Notes: generated from the letters alone by a model not told the origin. A stretch of DNA of 35,862 bases from Campylobacteraceae bacterium (GCA_031276075.1 JAISNU010000038.1:1-35862); one strand, 5' to 3'. Positions 4,322 to 33,817 are shown, counted from the first letter of the stretch. Translations and numbers: made by a program.

Positions 4322-4847
4322 ATCTGTTGATGATTTATTGTTGCCTTGTTGAGAGTTTTTTATGATATGCGGTTTTGTTTTTGAGAGCGTTGATTGTACT
4401 GTAAAGCGCGATTTCAAAACATTTTTATGAGTATTTTTTATTTCTCTATTTCAAGGCCTCTTTGCGAATTTAACACAACGGTCGCTTTATTATCAAATTC
4501 TATTTTTCCACGCTTTGCCTGCCGTGATAAAATGCTAATTTAATGCAACATTATCTTGTTGCGAGTGTTTAATCCTTTATTTTCTTGCGAGAACAGTACT
4601 ATTATTTTTATATTTATGACGCTTAGCTTAATACTTTACGCAATAAATTTTATTCCCGTACGCTCGGAAATCTAAAAGACAAAATGAGATAAAGTAATTA
4701 ATAAAAAAATTAAAAAATATTAGATTTTAAGGATTAAAACAAAAAGAGTTTATTTTCCATCATTGCGAGCGCGGCAATCCAAAATTTATAACAACAAAAA
4801 TACTATCATTATAGAAAAATAAGCATTTTTTCTATATTTGTAATTAT

Positions 4848-4896
4848 GGATTGCTTCGTCGTGCCACGCTTCGCTCGCAGTCCTCGCAATGACGGA
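4848..4896. repeat. Dispersed palindromic repeat (GGATTGC...GCAATGACGGA family)
   Basis: ggattgcttcgtcgtgccacgcttcgctcgcagtcctcgcaatgacgga; same consensus as the copies at 9.8-10.3 kb and 32-33.6 kb. Confidence 0.85.
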
Positions 4897-5290
4897 AGGT
4901 GGGATTGCCGTGCCTTCACACAACAGTTTGTAATGATGGATAAAGAAAGTTCCAGTTTTTTAATGAAATATTTTGATAATGCGCTTCACATTGGAAATGT
5001 TTTGCTTCATAAAAGCACTTTGCTTGTTCCTCAACGACTCGCAATAACGGAAGAGGGCGCATGCGCTTTGCAAGGTTGCGGGAATAACGGGAATAACAGA
5101 GAATGGGACGCATGTATTTTGTCTGTTGTATGGCGGTGAAATGACAAAAAGGGGATAAAAAACCGCTGATAATACGGTCGCAAAAATGCTCCAAAGTTTC
5201 AAAAAAGCAAAAAACGCTTTGATAATATTTATTTGATTATGCCGTTTTGCTGCATGTCGGAATATTATGCAAAAGACGCTTTAAATATAG

Positions 5291-9484: not shown

Positions 9485-9827
9485 AAACTGCCTTTTAAAT
9501 TAATTTTGTATTTTAGTAACACTATATTGCGAAACGGTTACAGAGATTTTTTACAACGCGGCATTGTAAGACCAAATAGTTCCGCTTTTATGATTTTTAA
9601 AAGCTGTTTGTAATGAAGCTCTTATGCAGGCTATTATAAGGGCAGGTTGAACCAAAATAAGCTTTGTAATGAAACTCTTATTTTTAGCGGCAGTATTTAT
9701 TCGCAATGCAAATTTAAAAATAGATATAATCTAAGCCTCATGAAAACAGCAGGCTTTTTATTGATAAGATTGTTATGAAAAATAAGCCGTCTTCCGTCAT
9801 TGTCATAAGGCGGAAATTCTTTTATCG

Positions 9828-9868
9828 CCGTCATTGCGAGGAGTGCGAAGCACGACGACGCAATCCAG
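9828..9868. repeat. Dispersed palindromic repeat copy in the pstS-pstC intergenic region
   Basis: ccgtcattgcgaggagtgcgaagcacgacgacgcaatccag. Confidence 0.85.
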
Positions 9869-9975
9869 AAAATACCTGCCCCCCGTCATTATAAAAGGAA
9901 TGGCTATCTTTTTTCCGTTACTAATAGAATTGCAAGCTTGTGAAGGATAAGCAATCCAAAAAGCGCCCTTTCCCT

Positions 9976-10020
9976 CCGTCATTGCGAGGAAGGAGTGTAA
10001 CGACTGACGAAGCAATCCAA
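9976..10020. repeat. Dispersed palindromic repeat copy in the pstS-pstC intergenic region
   Basis: ccgtcattgcgaggaaggagtgtaacgactgacgaagcaatccaa. Confidence 0.8.
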
Positions 10021-10096
10021 AAAACAATCCAAACATGCAGATAAAAAGTTGTTTTTGTTTATTATTAACAATACTATTTTTGTTATTGTAAAGAGT

Positions 10097-10135
10097 GGAT
10101 TGCCGCGCTGACTTTGTCAGCTCGCAATGACGGAA
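10097..10135. repeat. Dispersed palindromic repeat copy, opposite orientation
   Basis: ggattgccgcgctgactttgtcagctcgcaatgacggaa; internal GCTGAC-ttt-GTCAGC hairpin. Confidence 0.82.
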
Positions 10136-10249
10136 AGAGGGGGTACATCTTTGTGAGGGGTAGGAGTAAATCGTTTAAAAGCGTTGCAAATAGCTAAAAA
10201 AAGGCGTACATATGCTTTGCTGAGGGGGGGGTTTGCTAAAATAATCTCT

Positions 10250-10298
10250 CCGTCATTACGAGGAGTGCGAGCGAAGCGCGGTATAACGAAGCAATCCA
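10250..10298. repeat. Dispersed palindromic repeat copy in the pstS-pstC intergenic region
   Basis: ccgtcattacgaggagtgcgagcgaagcgcggtataacgaagcaatcca. Confidence 0.85.
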
Positions 10299-10360
10299 AA
10301 CATATAAATAAAGCCTGTCCGTCCTGAAATAGTGAATTTTCTACATGTAAGATAATTTTA

Positions 10361-24654: not shown

Positions 24655-24675
24655 ATGATTAGGTCAATAACATGA
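24655..24675 (+). other. Short upstream ORF (MIRSIT*) overlapping the cmr1 start codon as ATGA
   Basis: Purine-rich GGGGGAA at 24644-24650, then ATG ATT AGG TCA ATA ACA TGA; the TGA overlaps ATG at 24672. Confidence 0.4.
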
Positions 24676-25685
24676 ATATTTCAAGATTTGTAAATAATGA
24701 ACTTATTCAATGCGAAGTTGAATTTGTTACACCGGCATTTTTAGGCGGAGCGGACCAAAACGCCGAATTAAGAACAGCGCCTTTCAAAGCGTCTTTGCGC
24801 TGGTGGTGGCGAGTTTTATTTGGAGCGCAGCATGGCGAGAAAATATATGAAAAAGAGAGCGAGTTGTTTGGCTCGACGGATAGTGCTTCAAAAGTGAGAA
24901 TTGAAGTTTTGGGAACGCCTGCTATTGATAAAGCCGATCTTGCAAAGGATAACTTCAAAGGTAAAAAGCAACAAGTGGAAGGCAAGAGTTTTCGCATTGA
25001 TGTCATTGATTACCTTGCGTATGGGCTTTATGCTCGCGACAATGTTCGTCGTGGCAATGTATATCATAGAAACCATTTTGCCGCAGGTTCACGCTTTAAG
25101 CTCACCGTTTACGCGCCAAAAGAACACAAAGAGGAGATCGTCGCCTGTTTAAAGGCGTTATTTGCTTTTGGCGGCGTGGGTTCCAGATCAAGAAATGGTT
25201 TTGGTTCTTTGCGCCTTATAAACGATGCATTGCCAAACATGACGACCAAAATAGATTTTACACAAAATCCGAAGGAATATCCTACGCTAAATAAGGCTTC
25301 AAAGTTGTTTGAAACACAGCAATTTGATAATTGGGAAAAGGCGCTTTCCGATGTAGCCATTGCATACAAAAGCGCCCGATCGGCGTTAGAACTAAAGCAT
25401 AATTTTGAAATCAGAGGGCTATTGTCGCGTCCAATAGAGGTTAGAAATGAAAGGATTACCGATAATATAAGAAAAGATCGTAGTCCGAAACAGTTTATTA
25501 TACATATAGCCAAAACAAGCGACAATAAATATATAGGGCGGATTTTAACATTGCCGATTATATTTTATGAAGCAAATAATCGCGCAAAGTACGATGATAT
25601 GATCAAAAAAATGCACACAGCGCTTTCAAAAAATATGAATGATAAAACAGATGATATTTCGGAGTTTTTAGGAGTTGCTAAATGA
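24672..25685 (+). CDS. cmr1: Type III-B CRISPR RAMP protein Cmr1
   Basis: CEVEFVTPAFLGGADQNAELRTAPFKASLRWWWRVLFG; Gly-rich FGGVGSRSRNGFGSL. Confidence 0.92.
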   Translation: MNISRFVNNELIQCEVEFVTPAFLGGADQNAELRTAPFKASLRWWWRVLFGAQHGEKIYEKESELFGSTDSASKVRIEVLGTPAIDKADLAKDNFKGKKQQVEGKSFRIDVIDYLAYGLYARDNVRRGNVYHRNHFAAGSRFKLTVYAPKEHKEEIVACLKALFAFGGVGSRSRNGFGSLRLINDALPNMTTKIDFTQNPKEYPTLNKASKLFETQQFDNWEKALSDVAIAYKSARSALELKHNFEIRGLLSRPIEVRNERITDNIRKDRSPKQFIIHIAKTSDNKYIGRILTLPIIFYEANNRAKYDDMIKKMHTALSKNMNDKTDDISEFLGVAK

Positions 25686-27232
25686 GATACCTTGTTGTTT
25701 TTTCAATCACGCCCGTTCAAGCGTTTATTGGTAGAGCAAGAAAGTTACGGGATTTTTATGTTAGCTCAAAGATTTTGTCTTATTTGGCAAGTGCAGGTTT
25801 TAATGCCGTTAATGGCAAAAAAGTGTATCCTTCCGCGCAATCAAAATCCATACCAAATAAATTTGTTTTTTCTATAGAGGCAGATAAAGAGGAGCAAGTA
25901 AAAAGCGAATTGGAGCGCATAGAGCAATCAATTCAAAACGCATGGTTAGAGCTTGCGGATATAACCAATGTTCCAAGATGCAGAGTTAATGACTATTGGA
26001 ATTATTCGTGGGCAGCAGTTCCATATAAAGACGAAAAAGAGTATAAGCAAGCGCATTCCAAAGTACAAAAATTGCTTGCAGCTATAAAGTTAAAGCCTCG
26101 TAAAATCCGCAAATCTCAAACAGGTAAAAAATGTCCGTTATGCGGTGAAAACAGCGTATGGCGAGAAGATTTTGGCGCAAATAAAGATGAGAAGCTATGC
26201 GGCGTATGCGCGATTAAGCGGCTTTTACCAGAGAAAATTACAAAGAATCATCAATTGTATAGTATTTTTTCAGATAAATATCCTTCGGTAACAGAAATTG
26301 CCATGCACAGATACATTGGAAAGTATGGTTTAATAAATGAATACGAGATAGAGAGCTTGCAAGAAGAGACTAAGTATAATGAGTTAAAAAATAAATATGG
26401 CAAATCGCCGTCAAATAAAGAGAAATATTACGCTCTTTTGGCAATGGACGGCGACAAAATGGGCGATCTTGTTAATAAGAAAACAACACCAGATGAACAT
26501 TTGGGATTATCTCAAAAACTTGATAGTTTTAATGGTGAGGTAGAAAAAATTGATTGTTTTGATAAGAGAAAAGGGAATGCCAAATTAATTTATACCGGTG
26601 GAGATGATATATTTGCGGTTTTGCCGCTTGAAAATGCAATTAGCATTGCAAAAGAGATTCGCGAATTATATATGAAAAAAGTTGTAAAAGATGAACCAAC
26701 AACAACTATTTCTGCTGCAATAGTGATAGCGCATCACAAAGAGCCATTGCGCGAAGTGATACAGGATACGCATCGTGTTTTGGATAAAATCGCTAAAGAA
26801 AAAGCGGGCAGAGACGCATTGGCGATCAGATTAAAAAAGCGAAGCGGCGGCGATCGCGATCTGTTTTTTCAGTGGAAGGCGACAAATCCATTTAAACCTG
26901 ATGAAACGCTTTTTGATTCACTTCTTAAAATTAAAGAGGCGCTATCGGAAAGCGCGCTAACTTCCAGCTTGATATATCGTTTAGCGCAATTAAAAGATGC
27001 TATTGGTGTGCAAGGGATTAAGAGTGAACAAATACTTAAATTGTTTGAGTATGAGGTCGCTCATTCTATTGGAGAAGAGAATGTGAAAGAAAATGCAAAA
27101 AGGCTTGCGGGACTTTGTTTGGCACAAGCATTTAATCAACAAGGTGAATTAAAAGAATTTAATCCAGAAGCAGTTGCGATAGCACATTTTTTAGCGAATG
27201 ATAACGATGATAAAAAAATGGAGGACAAATAA
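25682..27232 (+). CDS. cmr2: Type III-B Cas10/Cmr2, short form without an N-terminal HD nuclease domain
   Basis: N-terminus goes straight into FSITPVQAFIGRARKLRDFYVSSKILSYLA; zinc finger CPLCGEN...CGVC; cyclase motif YTGGDDIFAVLP (GGDD at 26597-26608); 516 aa. Confidence 0.92.
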   Translation: MRYLVVFSITPVQAFIGRARKLRDFYVSSKILSYLASAGFNAVNGKKVYPSAQSKSIPNKFVFSIEADKEEQVKSELERIEQSIQNAWLELADITNVPRCRVNDYWNYSWAAVPYKDEKEYKQAHSKVQKLLAAIKLKPRKIRKSQTGKKCPLCGENSVWREDFGANKDEKLCGVCAIKRLLPEKITKNHQLYSIFSDKYPSVTEIAMHRYIGKYGLINEYEIESLQEETKYNELKNKYGKSPSNKEKYYALLAMDGDKMGDLVNKKTTPDEHLGLSQKLDSFNGEVEKIDCFDKRKGNAKLIYTGGDDIFAVLPLENAISIAKEIRELYMKKVVKDEPTTTISAAIVIAHHKEPLREVIQDTHRVLDKIAKEKAGRDALAIRLKKRSGGDRDLFFQWKATNPFKPDETLFDSLLKIKEALSESALTSSLIYRLAQLKDAIGVQGIKSEQILKLFEYEVAHSIGEENVKENAKRLAGLCLAQAFNQQGELKEFNPEAVAIAHFLANDNDDKKMEDK

Positions 27233-28092
27233 TGATTTGGTATGAATTAACGCCTTTTGATACATTGTTTTTTCGAGGCGGGATTCCATTGGAAACTGGA
27301 CTGCCTGTTTCGGATGTTTTGTTTCCACCTCCGCCCTCTGTGATTGCAGGTGCAGTTTGGACTGCTGGCAAGCAGGATTTTTCAAAAGATCCAAGCGTTA
27401 AAATCGGAGCTATTTTATTGAAAAAATGTGATAAATACTATGCACAAGCGCCGTATTCATGGTTTGTATCAAAAGGTGAAGCAGGAGATGGTAAAATTTT
27501 TAAGTCAAGAGAACTTAATGATACAAATTCAGTTTGTTCCGTAAATGCACCTATTCCATGGATAGAAGAGAATGAAGTTGAAAATATCGGTTCTCGATGG
27601 ATAAATATAGAGTTATTTGCAAAAGACGACAAATATAAAAAGGAAGATTTTTTTAACAACGAAGACCGCGCAGGAATAGCGATAAACTATAAGCGAAAAA
27701 GTGCAGAAGAGGGTAAATTATTTATGGCGCGGCATATTCGTCTGTGTCAAGGCGTTACAATTGCTATTGCGATTGACAACGAATATGGTTTAGGCGATAA
27801 AGGCGTTATGCGTTTGGGTGGAGAAGGACGTATGTGCTCTTATGAAAAGATAAAAACACCACCTAAGCTTCCAAATGCCAATAACGGCAGGCATTTTTTG
27901 GCACTTGCACCGATTTTATGTAGTGAAGAACGCAAAGATGAGCTTTTGAGTAAAGTATTTGCAGCTAAAACATTTGTCGTATCTGGGTGGAATATGAGAT
28001 TAAATGATCACAAGGCTTCGCAGACATGGTTTTGCGCAGGTTCAGTTTTTACTGAAAAAATAGGCGATCAGTGCATCGCTTTATCACAATAA
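27232..28092 (+). CDS. cmr3: Type III-B CRISPR protein Cmr3
   Basis: YELTPFDTLFFRGGIPLETG...FPPPPSVIAGAVWTA; RLGGEGRM. Confidence 0.9.
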   Translation: MIWYELTPFDTLFFRGGIPLETGLPVSDVLFPPPPSVIAGAVWTAGKQDFSKDPSVKIGAILLKKCDKYYAQAPYSWFVSKGEAGDGKIFKSRELNDTNSVCSVNAPIPWIEENEVENIGSRWINIELFAKDDKYKKEDFFNNEDRAGIAINYKRKSAEEGKLFMARHIRLCQGVTIAIAIDNEYGLGDKGVMRLGGEGRMCSYEKIKTPPKLPNANNGRHFLALAPILCSEERKDELLSKVFAAKTFVVSGWNMRLNDHKASQTWFCAGSVFTEKIGDQCIALSQ

Positions 28093-28105
28093 AAGGAAAA
28101 GTAAA

Positions 28106-28897
28106 ATGAGTTACAATATTTCTATTTTGGTTATGTATGCGCTTACGCCGTGCCATGCAGGAAGCGGTTCGGCTCTTGGAGTAGTAGATCTGCCGATTCA
28201 GCGCGAAAGGCACACAAACTATCCGACTATTTATTCATCGAGCATGAAAGGTGCATTTAGGGCAAATTTCGAACGCTCCAAAGGTGAAGAATTGACAAAA
28301 AGTATTTTTGGAGAGTCAAACTCTAACGATAGCTATGCAGGAGCAGTCAGTATAAGCGATGCTAAGATTTTGGCATTTCCTATGCGTTCGTCCGTTGCGC
28401 CTTTTGTATGGATTACATGCCCGACTGTGTTGGATCGCTTAAACCGCGATCTTAGGTTAGCAGGGAAAGAAAAAATTGAATACAAAGAGCAGTCAAAAGA
28501 TAACAATGAAGAGGCGATTGCGCTTAAAGGTGATTTGCAAGGCGATATACTCATAGAAGACTATCAAGTTAGCGTAAAAGAAACATGCGAAATAAAAAGC
28601 GAGTTATTTGCGCAAACTACACGACTTTTATTAGTCAGTGATAAAGTATTTGATTATGGAGTGTCAAATTGCACACAAATTAATGCACAAATTGCGATTA
28701 AACAAGAAAGCGGCTCTACCGAAGTAGGTACGCTTCGTTATCAGGAAGAATTGCCGTCAGATACGCTAATGTATTGCACAATTGCATATAAAGACAGCAA
28801 AAACAAAGAGCAAATACAAGAAGCGGTTTCAAAATATATTCAAATTGGCGGTAGCGAAACGCTTGGACGCGGTGTATTTGAATTAGAGTGGAAATAA
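28106..28897 (+). CDS. cmr4: Type III-B backbone protein Cmr4 (target RNA cleavage subunit)
   Basis: PCHAGSGSALGVVDLPIQRERHTNYPTIYSSSMKGAFRANFE; C-terminal IQIGGSETLGRGVFEL; conserved Asp at 28187-28189. Confidence 0.93.
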   Translation: MSYNISILVMYALTPCHAGSGSALGVVDLPIQRERHTNYPTIYSSSMKGAFRANFERSKGEELTKSIFGESNSNDSYAGAVSISDAKILAFPMRSSVAPFVWITCPTVLDRLNRDLRLAGKEKIEYKEQSKDNNEEAIALKGDLQGDILIEDYQVSVKETCEIKSELFAQTTRLLLVSDKVFDYGVSNCTQINAQIAIKQESGSTEVGTLRYQEELPSDTLMYCTIAYKDSKNKEQIQEAVSKYIQIGGSETLGRGVFELEWK

Positions 28898-28907
28898 GGG
28901 GGCAGCT

Positions 28908-29303
28908 ATGCAAACTAGACAGCAAAAACGCGCCGAATTTGCGTTAAAGAAAATTGGTTCGGTTAAAATAGACGAAAAAACGGCGAATTTTTACGCAGGC
29001 GCACCAACGATGATACTGTCAAACGGTCTTGGTCAAACAATGGCTTTTTTGCTTTCAAAAAAGGAAACGGACAAGGAAAGGAAGTTGTTTGACATTTTAA
29101 AAGAGTGGCTTACTACGGAGAAAAATCCACTTTCCAATCTAAAAGATAAACAAAATGCCGCTTTTTTGCAAGCATTTAACGAGTTACAAATTAACAAGTA
29201 TCTTGAAGCGCAAACTGAAGCATTGCGTCTTTTAGAGTGGCTCAAACGATATGCAAAGGCGTTTGGAGAGAAAGAGTGGGAGGCAAAAAATGCCGATAAA
29301 TAA
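28908..29303 (+). CDS. cmr5: Type III-B small subunit Cmr5
   Basis: Small helical protein QTRQQKRAEFALKKIG...YAGAPTMILSNGLGQTMAFLLSKK; position between cmr4 and cmr6. Confidence 0.88.
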   Translation: MQTRQQKRAEFALKKIGSVKIDEKTANFYAGAPTMILSNGLGQTMAFLLSKKETDKERKLFDILKEWLTTEKNPLSNLKDKQNAAFLQAFNELQINKYLEAQTEALRLLEWLKRYAKAFGEKEWEAKNADK

Positions 29304-30345
29304 AGTCAGCTCCAATAGGCAGGGCAGTAAGCAAAGTTTAGACGATTTTTTTGCTTCCCGCAAGGACAATCAACAGCGAAATAGTGGAAATAAGCAGAGT
29401 AATTCACAAGGCAGTAAATCTAATAATGGTTATAAAAGTCAAAACAACAACAATAGCGGAAGAAACAATAATGGTAATACGAGAGATGAAAACAGCGGTA
29501 ATGGGCTTTATCCAATACCCCAGCATCTTGTTGAATTGTTGAAAAAAAGCACTGCAAATTTCTCTCTTTCATTTGTGCGTTTGATGGAGTGGAGAATTAA
29601 TGATGATGCCACAGAAAAAATAAAAGATCCAAAAGACCTTAAAGATCAAAATAAGTCTATATTATCGGCAAAGAAATTTTGCGATGATGCGAACAAAAAA
29701 CTTCCAAATATACAAAATGAACTGAATTTAATTCATAACCGCCAAAAAGAAATAATAAGCGAATTAGGCACTTTGCCTATAGAGATAAAAGCAAAATTAA
29801 TTTCACCGTTTATTTCAGGGCTTGGTGCAGGACATCCGAATGAAACGGGGATGATATTAGACCGCAATACGGGCTGCCCGTTTATTCCTGCAAGTTCAAT
29901 CAAAGGCGTTTTGCGTTTAGCTTATGCTATAAACCTTGCCAAAGATAATCAAGATATTATTGAAGATAAAGAATTGGATAAATATTTTGGCTCTACGGAT
30001 GCAAATAATAGCAAGCATGGGCAGCTTGTTATTTTAGACGCATATCCCACAAGTGCGCCTAAAATTAAATTGGATATTATGAATCCTCATTATAGTGATT
30101 ATTACGGCAAAAAAGAAAATCACAAACTGCCAATTGAAACAGAAAATCCTGTGCCGATTAAATTTATTAGCGTAAAAGAAGGAACAGAATTTATCTTTCG
30201 CGCTTTTTTTCTGCCGTTTCATAGTGAAACTTTTACCGAAAATGATAAAAGCGCAATTAAAGCTGCATTCAAAAAAGCTTTTAACATTGTGGGCTTTGGT
30301 GGTAAAACGGTGATCGGTTATGGGAGATTTGAAACAATTAAATAA
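29290..30345 (+). CDS. cmr6: Type III-B RAMP protein Cmr6 with N-terminal Asn/Gln/Ser/Gly-rich extension
   Basis: ISPFISGLGAGHPNETGMILDRNTGCPFIPASSIKGVLRLAYA; C-terminal GFGGKTVIGYGRFE. Start MPINKVSS overlaps the cmr5 end. Confidence 0.88.
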   Translation: MPINKVSSNRQGSKQSLDDFFASRKDNQQRNSGNKQSNSQGSKSNNGYKSQNNNNSGRNNNGNTRDENSGNGLYPIPQHLVELLKKSTANFSLSFVRLMEWRINDDATEKIKDPKDLKDQNKSILSAKKFCDDANKKLPNIQNELNLIHNRQKEIISELGTLPIEIKAKLISPFISGLGAGHPNETGMILDRNTGCPFIPASSIKGVLRLAYAINLAKDNQDIIEDKELDKYFGSTDANNSKHGQLVILDAYPTSAPKIKLDIMNPHYSDYYGKKENHKLPIETENPVPIKFISVKEGTEFIFRAFFLPFHSETFTENDKSAIKAAFKKAFNIVGFGGKTVIGYGRFETIK

Positions 30346-30356
30346 GGGAAAATATT

Positions 30357-31598
30357 GTGAAAATAGTTACTGTTGTTGGCATGTTGAATAAGGAAAAAGC
30401 AAATTATGGATATGATGACCAACTCAAGGAAAAATTTGGGGAACTGAAAAAGAGCGGTTATTATACCAATATGCTTCCATTGTTGATAGATAATTTTGAC
30501 TATGAGATAGTTCCTATATTCACCGAAAAGGCAAAAAATGTTCAAATAAGCGTATTGAAAAATGAGTTTGGCACAGATTATTCTCATATCTTTGATGGAA
30601 AATATCTTATTGATGACGAAAAAAATTATTACGATATATTATCGCTAATCAATGAAGCTATTACAGAGGATAATGAATATATCATAGATTTAACTCACGG
30701 TTTTAGGCACATTCCCATTTTGGCTACTATTGCATTAATCACTCATAATATAAGCAACTCGTCAAATATAAAACATATATTATTTGCCAAAGAGATAAAA
30801 CATGAAAAAGAGTATGAAATAATTGATCTTAAAGAGTATTTAGAGTTAGCAAATATGTCTTATATGCTCGCTTCATTTGCGGATAATTATACGGTTTCTA
30901 AAATAGGTAAATTTACCAATGAATCATTTCAAGCTTTAAGTAACAGTCTTAGCAATTTGTCAAATAAAATATTGTCAAACTCAATTAAGGATATTAATGA
31001 GAGTCTGAAAATGACCATAGATAATATTAATGTAATTAAGAATGATAGGAAAATATCGGCATTGCGGCATAATTTGGCAAAGGTTGAAGAGCATATAAAA
31101 GAACTTCAAGAAATAAGTAAATGTGAATATTTAAAATCAAGACAATCGTATGAATTTTCAGAGTTATTGGGAAAAAAAGGATATTTATTGAATGCAATAA
31201 CTTTACTATTTGAAGCGATAGGCTACTACTGTTTGGAGAAATTTAAATTAATAGACAAGAGCGTGAAAGAGCATATAGAATTATATTCTAAAGAACAAAA
31301 AGGGCAAAAGATCACATATGAATTAACAAATAATTCTCGCAAGTTTGTAAAAAAACTTAAAGGCATATATCTTGTTAAAAATGAGAATGTTAAAAAAATA
31401 ATTATTGATTTTCTTAATAGCAAAGAGAATATAGAACAATTTAGAGAATTCATTATAAAGGCGGAAGATTTAAGAAATGATTTGGCTCATGGAAATAACG
31501 GTGAAAGTATAGAAGATGCAAATTTGGAATTTAAAAATTTATTAGATCAATACAAAGAATTTTGTATTGATAATGATATTTTAGCAAAACGACAATAG
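30357..31598 (+). CDS. CRISPR-associated CARF-HEPN ribonuclease, DxTHG-motif / Csx1-like (TM1812-like)
   Basis: IIDLTHGFRHIP (DxTHG at 30687-30701); C-terminal HEPN motif RNDLAH (Rx4H, 31473-31490); 11 nt after cmr6. Confidence 0.82.
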   Translation: MKIVTVVGMLNKEKANYGYDDQLKEKFGELKKSGYYTNMLPLLIDNFDYEIVPIFTEKAKNVQISVLKNEFGTDYSHIFDGKYLIDDEKNYYDILSLINEAITEDNEYIIDLTHGFRHIPILATIALITHNISNSSNIKHILFAKEIKHEKEYEIIDLKEYLELANMSYMLASFADNYTVSKIGKFTNESFQALSNSLSNLSNKILSNSIKDINESLKMTIDNINVIKNDRKISALRHNLAKVEEHIKELQEISKCEYLKSRQSYEFSELLGKKGYLLNAITLLFEAIGYYCLEKFKLIDKSVKEHIELYSKEQKGQKITYELTNNSRKFVKKLKGIYLVKNENVKKIIIDFLNSKENIEQFREFIIKAEDLRNDLAHGNNGESIEDANLEFKNLLDQYKEFCIDNDILAKRQ

Positions 31599-31976
31599 AT
31601 GAAAAAACTTTTTATATTGATGAATCATAACCTGATGGAGAGTCAAATCAAGGAAGCTAAAGAGGTTTTAAAAATTGACGAGATTATAGATTTGAGTGAC
31701 AGCACTTGGGCAAATATAGATCCCGATAAAGAAAAAATTACATACGAGCTTACAGCCTATAAAGAGCGCTTAACCGCTGAAGCTAACAAAGATAATTATC
31801 TGTTGGTGCAAGGCGATTTTAGCGCGACATACAGCATGGTAAATTTTGCATTTATAAACGGAATTATTCCTGTATATGCCGTAACCAAAAGAGAATCCAA
31901 AGAACAGATAATTGACGGCAAAGTGGTTATTACGAGAGAGTTTATCCACGCAAGGTTTAGAGAATATGAACAGTAA
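31599..31976 (+). CDS. csx20: Csx20-like CRISPR accessory protein (putative cyclic-oligoadenylate ring nuclease)
   Basis: MKKLFILMNHNLMESQIKEAKEVL...LLVQGDFSATYSMVNFAFINGIIPVYAVTKRES; begins directly after the upstream stop codon. Confidence 0.75.
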   Translation: MKKLFILMNHNLMESQIKEAKEVLKIDEIIDLSDSTWANIDPDKEKITYELTAYKERLTAEANKDNYLLVQGDFSATYSMVNFAFINGIIPVYAVTKRESKEQIIDGKVVITREFIHARFREYEQ

Positions 31977-32626
31977 TAGATAAACTTACCAAAAAAATGT
32001 ATTTTTAAATCCTATTGCGATTTATGAAAATTATAAACTTTAACCGCAATAAGATAAAATGGTATTTACAGCAGGCATTAATTTTATTGCTATTATCAAA
32101 CGAGACAGAAGTAGCATGGTTTTAAGATAATAGACATGAGATTTTGCAAAAGAGTAATATTTAATACATGCGTTTTTATCATGCGCGGGAAATATGGATT
32201 GCTTCGTCGCTGCACTCCTCGCAATGACAGAAAAAGAATAATAACAGGAGCAATTGAAAGCACAAATAATGACCTTGCAATGATAAAGACAGGTGTTTTA
32301 TGGATTGTTACCATTTTTGCAATGACGGGAGGGTCGTTTTCCTGCGGAGTATCTGTTTTATGTCGTTGCAAGCTGCTATATGAGAGCGCGGTAATCTTTG
32401 CAAATAACGATCAATTTTGTAATTGTGAGCCGTTGGAAATGGCGCGGCAATCCACTTTTCTTCGTCATTGAAAACATTATATAACAGCACATCATTTTAT
32501 CATTGCGACTGCGAGCTTGCGAAGCAGGAAACAGTTCCTTCTTCTTTTAGTAATTTCCCATGTTCCTTTATGCCATTCCTGTGTACTTGGGAATTTATAT
32601 ATTCCGTCATATGAATTTCCATCTTG

Positions 32627-32823
32627 CCGTCATTGCGAGGACTGCGAGCAAAGCGTGGCAGGATGAGGCAATCCAGACGCGAAGCGTTATGAAACATCAA
32701 GATATTATGATTAAAAAACATGAAATAACTTAAATTTGGAGTTGATAATTTATATTTTTAGTTTTTTATTTTCTGGATTGCTTCGCCGCAAGCGGCTCGC
32801 AATGACGGAAGAGGTGTTTTTTT
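32627..32823 (+). repeat. Long direct repeat, copy 1
   Basis: ccgtcattgcgaggactgcgagcaaagcgtggcaggatgaggcaatccagacgcgaagcgttatgaaacatcaagatattatg...cggaagaggtgttttttt; near-identical to 33241-33438. Confidence 0.9.
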
Positions 32824-33240
32824 AGATTGCTGCGGCACTACATCCCTTGTAATGACGGAGAGGATACACTCTTGCATAATGGAGCATAATAGATTCCCGC
32901 CTGTGCAGGAATGACAGAAATGAACAAAAATTATAAAAGAAAAATAATGAAAGACAAAATACAATTGATTACCGCGCCGCAAACAACTTACAATAGCACA
33001 AAAATAACACCTTTTTCATCATTGTGAGGAATACAATGACAAAGCTATCAAGTTTGTGGACACAAGGAGGGATTGTGAAGAGTTACATGCAGGAAATACA
33101 ATGACAAAGCAATCCTTCCTCTCCGTCATTGCGAGACACATAGTGTCGCGGCAATCCAGAAATAATAAAAAGACAAAACAAATCCATAGTCTTATTTCAT
33201 CGTTGTGTAAAAATTTTGTTTTATAAATAAAGCAACAATT

Positions 33241-33438
33241 CCGTCATTGTGAGGACTGCGAGCAAAGCGTGGCAGGACGAGGCAATCCAGACGCGAAGCG
33301 TTATGAAACATCAAGATAGTGTGATTAAAAAACATAGAATAACTTAAATTTGGAGTTGATAATTTATATTTTTAGTTTTTTATTTTCTGGATTGCTTCGC
33401 CACCGCACTTCTCGCAATGACGGAAGAAGTGTTTTTTG
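33241..33438 (+). repeat. Long direct repeat, copy 2
   Basis: Near-identical to 32627-32823, including the unique core gcgttatgaaacatcaagat...aataacttaaatttggagttgataatttatatttttagttttttattttctggattgcttcgcc. Confidence 0.9.
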
Positions 33439-33817
33439 GATTGCCGCACTGAGCGCATCAGCTCGCAATGACGGATATAGTGGGAGATTGCCACCATGCC
33501 GTTTTCGAGGAAACATTTCAGGAATATGCTTCGTCTTGCTTCACACTCCTCGCAATGACAGAAGAAGTGTTTTTTTGGATTGCCGCGACACTATGTCCTT
33601 CGCGATGACAAAGCGTTTCTATTTTTTTATTTCATAAAAATTATAAATCTTATAATCTCTAAATATTATACTAAACAGATACAAAAACTCAAATATTTTA
33701 AGCAGGTTATAATATTTGAACATATATAATACCAATTAAACAGATAAATTAACTATACTTTTTTAGTAAAGTATTTATTGAGATATTTAATTCTTGTAAA
33801 AATTTAAGGAGGAAGTT

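Follow-up and report, generated by a model that had tools for sequence, protein, structure and literature searches.

The DNA analysed here (the window) is a complete contig, C160, 35,862 bases long, from the genome of a Campylobacteraceae bacterium (G000; 1.88 Mb, 165 contigs, 99% complete), and both of its ends are therefore assembly ends. Positions 24672-31976 (+) hold eight genes in the order cmr1-cas10-cmr3-cmr4-cmr5-cmr6-csx1-csx20, which form an intact, streamlined type III-B CRISPR system composed of known kinds of parts. We consider it probable, at roughly 0.8, that this pared-down system is functional and that its guides come from a type I-B system residing elsewhere in the same genome.

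The type III-B operon and its proteins

All eight reading frames are intact and retain their active-site motifs, and profile searches gave a family match for each gene in at least two libraries (Table 1). The genes cmr1, cas10/cmr2 and cmr3-cmr6 lie together in one locus, the gene set of type III-B. Overlaps of 4 nucleotides (nt) between cmr1 and cas10 and of 1 nt between cas10 and cmr3 are accompanied by gaps of 13 nt (cmr3/cmr4), 10 nt (cmr4/cmr5) and 11 nt (cmr6/csx1), and csx20 follows csx1 directly (0 nt); the overlap of cmr5 with cmr6 varies with the cmr6 start assigned and reaches 53 nt at most. An earlier note on this DNA had described a single operon of eight same-strand genes separated by overlaps or by gaps of at most 13 nt, and its boundaries and spacing agree with ours.

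The GGDD motif that the note reported in Cas10 is present at residues 306-309 and invariant across five aligned homologues, within a palm/cyclase domain matching PF22335 (1e-35). The Cmr2_N domain begins at residue 4 of this protein, whereas homologues from a termite-gut Fibrimonas and from Desulfocapsaceae (L046 and L048) carry approximately 190-220 additional N-terminal amino acids (aa) with an LHDPPHK/LHDPVHK motif; the HD nuclease region is thus absent from the Cas10 of the operon. Such absence is common, since a recognisable HD domain occurs in the Cas10 of 39% of type III loci (PMC11229360). Defence by a Cas10 complex of this kind should rest on cutting of the target RNA and on signalling by cyclic oligoadenylate (cOA). 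The conserved aspartate of Cmr4, D28 in GVVDLPIQRE, aligns with GVVDQPIQRE in Cmr4 proteins of solved structure, for example 4W8W and 4RDP, which suggests that the subunit may cut RNA under the guidance of CRISPR RNA (crRNA).

The effector gene encodes a CARF-HEPN protein, as the note had proposed. Its CARF motif DLTHG and HEPN motif R373NDLAH378 (R-x4-H) are intact and conserved in a five-protein alignment and, together with the match to PDLC01828, place it in Csx1 (CARF plus HEPN with R-x4-6-H). A search of its sequence against solved structures gave no real match. Judging from its family and from its Csx20 partner (PMC12409355), Csx1 is predicted to be activated by cyclic tetra-adenylate (cA4).

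The last gene, called Csx20-like in the note, does belong to the Csx20 ring nuclease family, its NF040559 score lying above the cut-off. Alignment of 12 rows (11 homologues) revealed eight invariant columns, and the AlphaFold2 model is confident (mean predicted local distance difference test, pLDDT, 93.6). A fold search placed Sso2081 (Crn1) at ranks 2 and 3 with a modest E value of 0.008 and template modelling scores of 0.42-0.43, rank 1 being a ribose-binding-protein fragment; this lends support to a CARF-like fold related to Crn1 but falls short of a firm threshold. By family membership the protein is expected to be a ring nuclease that degrades cA4, an activity demonstrated in 2025 for another member (Hoikkala et al. 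2025, PMC12409355). No Csx20 was found in viral contigs by a close-relative search.

In the same study no ring nuclease was more frequent than Csx20 (78 loci), which is strongly associated with Csx1 (PMC12409355); PADLOC includes a CARF-HEPN-Csx20 fusion family, and we observed a 583-aa protein (L107:1115-2866) that matches both the effector and Csx20, i.e. an on- and an off-switch in a single chain. The pairing of Csx1 with Csx20 was therefore already known. Like the Csx1+Csx20 loci of that study, ours unites a GGDD Cas10 complex, a CARF-HEPN effector and Csx20, and it does not differ from them in kind; it lacks its own cas6, adaptation genes, array and Cas10 HD region. The idea of a matched effector/shut-off pair, put forward in the note, is sound as far as an effector accompanied by an off-switch is concerned, but the pair is not exclusive: in two relatives a transmembrane CARF (TM-CARF) gene stands between the two genes, and one of these relatives encodes another HEPN protein.

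Codon positions were compared with the locus of a same-genus relative (G011) for cmr1, cmr3-6, csx1 and csx20, cas10 being set aside. Across these seven genes divergence is 0.11-0.22 at position 2 and 0.44-0.52 at position 3 (positions 1/2/3: 0.22/0.11/0.45 for csx20 and 0.30/0.19/0.49 for csx1), a pattern as under purifying selection.

Table 1. Features of the window and repeat-bearing contigs of the source genome
Feature	Position	Strand	Support
cmr1, 337 aa	24672..25685	+	TIGR01894 57 bits; PDLC01445 6e-25
cas10/cmr2, 516 aa, GGDD cyclase motif, without N-terminal HD region	25682..27232	+	TIGR02577 147 bits (cut-off 79)
cmr3, 286 aa	27232..28092	+	PF09700 1e-25; PDLC01361 3e-34
cmr4, 263 aa, backbone subunit	28106..28897	+	TIGR02580 205 bits
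cmr5, 131 aa	28908..29303	+	PF09701 3e-29
cmr6, 364 aa; alternative later start 29290	29251..30345	+	TIGR01898 120 bits
csx1-type CARF-HEPN effector, 413 aa, GTG start	30357..31598	+	PDLC01828 3e-117
csx20, predicted ring nuclease, 125 aa	31599..31976	+	NF040559 132.4 bits (cut-off 70)
One decayed I-B CRISPR repeat copy, 7/30 positions off consensus	9646..9675	+	pattern search; reversed-pattern control 0 genome-wide
Mini-arrays elsewhere in G000 (loci L142-L145, L178-L193)	C8, C42, C45, C54, C68, C74, C76-C78, C84, C112, C119, C125, C130, C133, C137, C144, C147, C156		

The type I-B system as a probable source of guides

No CRISPR array, cas6, cas1 or cas2 was found within the window, the sole trace being the decayed repeat listed in Table 1. 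The operon had on this ground been called array-less, which holds for the window but not for the genome, where there are about 25 repeat clusters, two end fragments of cas6b and a type I-B module. The genome-wide search for cas6 and arrays that the note had suggested as a check was positive for both repeats and cas6b, and a truly array-less (orphan) type III system can be rejected at the genome level. An array-less label drawn from a single contig is unsafe.

Contig C31 of G000 carries the C-terminal part of cas6b at one end, followed by cas8b, cas7b, cas5b, cas3b and, at the other end, the start of cas4; the N-terminal part of cas6b forms the start of contig C161. In relatives the region continues from cas4 into cas1, cas2 and an array. 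That contigs end within cas6 and within cas4 points to a break in the assembly, beyond which cas1, cas2 and the main array may be located. The cas6b gene was detected only when a relative's protein from the same genus served as the query; searches of G000 with the PF10040 and PF01881 (Cas6) and PF01867 (Cas1) profiles gave no match, and these family-profile negatives alone would have been misleading. The I-B loci of the genus (C31, i.e. L176, as well as L125, L132 and L134) appear to share cas6 and cas4 while differing in their cas8/cas7/cas5/cas3 modules, and both breaks in G000 fall in the shared genes.

The first array pattern used, GATTNNRAC, had no match in G000 because the repeat of the genus ends TATTGAAAT. 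A pattern ending in ATTGAAA does find CRISPR repeats in this genome, and that for the repeat CATGAACCGAAACAAGCGTTGTATTGAAAT gave 38 matches against 0 for the reversed control. The I-B repeat family occurs in 14/14 genomes of the genus, with leadered arrays in several of those read; in G008 and G012 it adjoins an I-B cas operon. The main-array leader of the genus, sought in G000 at two mismatches, yielded seven matches compared with seven in the control, so it is absent or not assembled. The repeat provides an 8-nt handle, ATTGAAAT; type III complexes use a crRNA handle of 8 nt.

A precedent for guide sharing is the III-B complex of Marinomonas mediterranea, which was shown by experiment to draw on type I crRNAs (Silas et al. 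2017, PMC5576922). Each genome combines a Cmr complex with a type I system from which it could take Cas6 and crRNAs; the Marinomonas partner is of type I-F, and its III-B system has an array as well, whereas in G000 the partner would be I-B. This precedent and the presence of cas6b pieces and I-B repeats in the genome make guide supply by the I-B system the likeliest answer.

On this basis the system probably works as follows. Cas6b of the I-B system would most likely cut repeats ending in ATTGAAAT, and the processed crRNAs would load onto Cmr1-6/Cas10; if guides are indeed shared, Cmr-bound crRNA would carry the handle AUUGAAAU. Pairing of a crRNA with a phage transcript should lead to cleavage of that RNA by Cmr4, whose aspartate is conserved, and should cause the GGDD palm domain of Cas10 to build a cOA, most likely cA4. 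Binding of cA4 to the CARF domain of Csx1 would switch on its HEPN RNase, for which the motifs are present, and Csx20, to judge from another member of its family, would break cA4 and reset the cell.

Several points weigh against guide supply from the I-B system. The use of I-B repeat guides by Cmr is something that we infer. The G000 assembly contains neither a PF01867 cas1 nor a leader-bearing array, and its cas6b is seen as two fragments at contig ends. Moreover, G218, a member of another family of the order, has a related locus that includes a cas6 and, again, no adjoining array.

Scattered leaderless mini-arrays

The repeats of G000 form mini-arrays, which we counted in 236 kb of contigs chosen for holding repeats, so that their density is not a genome average. 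There are approximately 25 clusters with 63 repeat copies and 37 spacers of 33-39 nt, unique save for one local duplication. Although open reading frames (ORFs) of at least 150 aa make up 72% of these contigs, 42 of the 47 sites lie outside them. The leftmost copy is often reduced to ACAAGCGTTGTATTGAAAT (Cas6 hairpin and handle); both the handle and the ACAA..TTGT hairpin persist in first repeats. TTATTAYTATAATC, or a sequence differing little from it, terminates at least nine clusters, most of which continue into a dispersed CGTCATTGCGAGG element. This palindromic element (CGTCATTGCGAGG ... GCAATCC) adjoins the right end of many mini-arrays of G000 and is also clustered in the window, at 4770-5064, 9780-10312 and 32195-33600.

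Six mini-array sites were compared with relatives. G002 and G005 have no repeat there, nor does G011 at the two sites checked, while two of the six are occupied in G008 by mini-arrays built of its own repeat variant (L215, L216).

It is conceivable, though unlikely, that the CRISPR memory of this genome is scattered over these short leaderless intergenic clusters, and that they, not one main array, mainly feed both the I-B and the Cmr complexes. The number of clusters, the spacer lengths and the retention of hairpin and handle in first repeats speak for it. No leader or promoter was identified, however, and G008, the closest relative compared in detail, has a leadered main array in addition to its mini-arrays; that of G000 may be merely unassembled, given that C31 ends inside cas4. 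If mini-arrays do make guides, they would represent a form of CRISPR memory of which we found no description in the literature searched.

A role as CreA-like local regulators received no support: the longest match of each spacer within the 6 kb around it had a mean of 10.5 (9.1 in shuffles), and a single duplicated pair at C130 (31 and 33 nt) accounted for much of the difference. The mini-arrays resemble the ectopic repeats of CreTA (Cheng et al. 2022, PMC9458426) in being degenerate CRISPR repeats outside arrays with a more diverged first repeat. CreTA, in contrast, comprises one or two repeats at a cas locus and represses a toxin, while the clusters of G000 are dispersed along its contigs, and neither a toxin nor a local target could be found for them. 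Searches of viral contigs with one exact 22-base spacer core and one codon-degenerate pattern found no target.

Related loci and the history of the operon

A close Cas10 was found in only two of 249 genomes of the order, G011 (72%) and G218 (63%); the next closest named proteins are those of Candidatus Fibrimonas termitidis and of another Fibrimonadales metagenome-assembled genome (MAG), at 39-40%. G011 is the Campylobacteraceae MAG Ct408_bin2 (contig L045), whose isolate name we read as pointing to a termite gut. Its locus, cmr1-6-csx1-TM-CARF-csx20-WYL, is broken inside cas10 across two contigs, and no cas6, cas1/cas2 or array was found there. In G218, contigs C161, C15 and C208 of that genome join through exact 119-nt overlaps into the locus cas6-cmr1-6-csx1b-TM-CARF-csx20-WYL-cas2-cas1-cas2. 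Its cmr1-6 (59-74% identity) and csx20 are orthologous to ours, and it differs in having cas6, WYL, cas2-cas1-cas2, the TM-CARF gene and a different HEPN protein. The flanking genes differ among all three loci.

Relative to these fuller loci, the operon of the window is without cas6, cas1/cas2, the WYL regulator and the membrane CARF effector, and it looks like the product of stepwise loss, the alternative being gain in G218. The two-TM CARF protein (PADLOC CARF_2M), encoded between csx1 and csx20 in G011 and G218 (L027:4742-5419, L025:224-895), has a layout resembling the cA4-gated membrane effectors Cam1/Cap1.

These absences, and that of an assembled leader-bearing array in G000, could also mean that the operon is an orphan relic which, devoid of its own cas6, cas1 and array, receives no guides and is on its way out. 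We regard this as very doubtful, because the eight frames are intact, the catalytic motifs conserved and the codon pattern that of purifying selection, and because repeats and pieces of cas6b are present in the genome. Least probable of all is a cas6 and array of its own close by, past the contig ends, as the extent of the window and the G218 arrangement (cas6 directly upstream of cmr1, cas1/cas2 downstream of csx20) might suggest: there is no array in the 24.7 kb upstream (where not all ORFs were named) or the 3.9 kb downstream, sprT and not cas6 lies upstream of cmr1, the same-genus G011 lacks both at this locus, and PF10040 and PF01881 have no match in G000.

The G218 HEPN protein is only 18% identical to Csx1 of the operon, yet csx20 has been kept. 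That csx20 is retained while the effector changes indicates that the off-switch fits the messenger and not a particular effector, and so supports the idea of such tuning in ring nucleases; the operon offers a clean example of a type III-B locus pared to complex, effector and off-switch, in which the effector is exchanged and the ring nuclease stays. The guanine-plus-cytosine content is 27.5% for csx1 (26.6% for csx1 of G011), 35% for csx20 and 35-40% for the cmr genes; these differences fit separate histories, as if csx1 had been acquired separately.

No tRNA or Rfam match was found in the window. Just 3' of csx20 lie two direct copies of a 161-nt sequence (32627-32787 and 33241-33401), which are 96% identical. 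A different CRISPR locus of G011 (L126:2177-6001, contig C117) comprises a 1274-aa gene, labelled Cas12a-like from its sequence appearance, array and neighbours, together with an array of five repeats and genes resembling cas4, cas1 and cas2.

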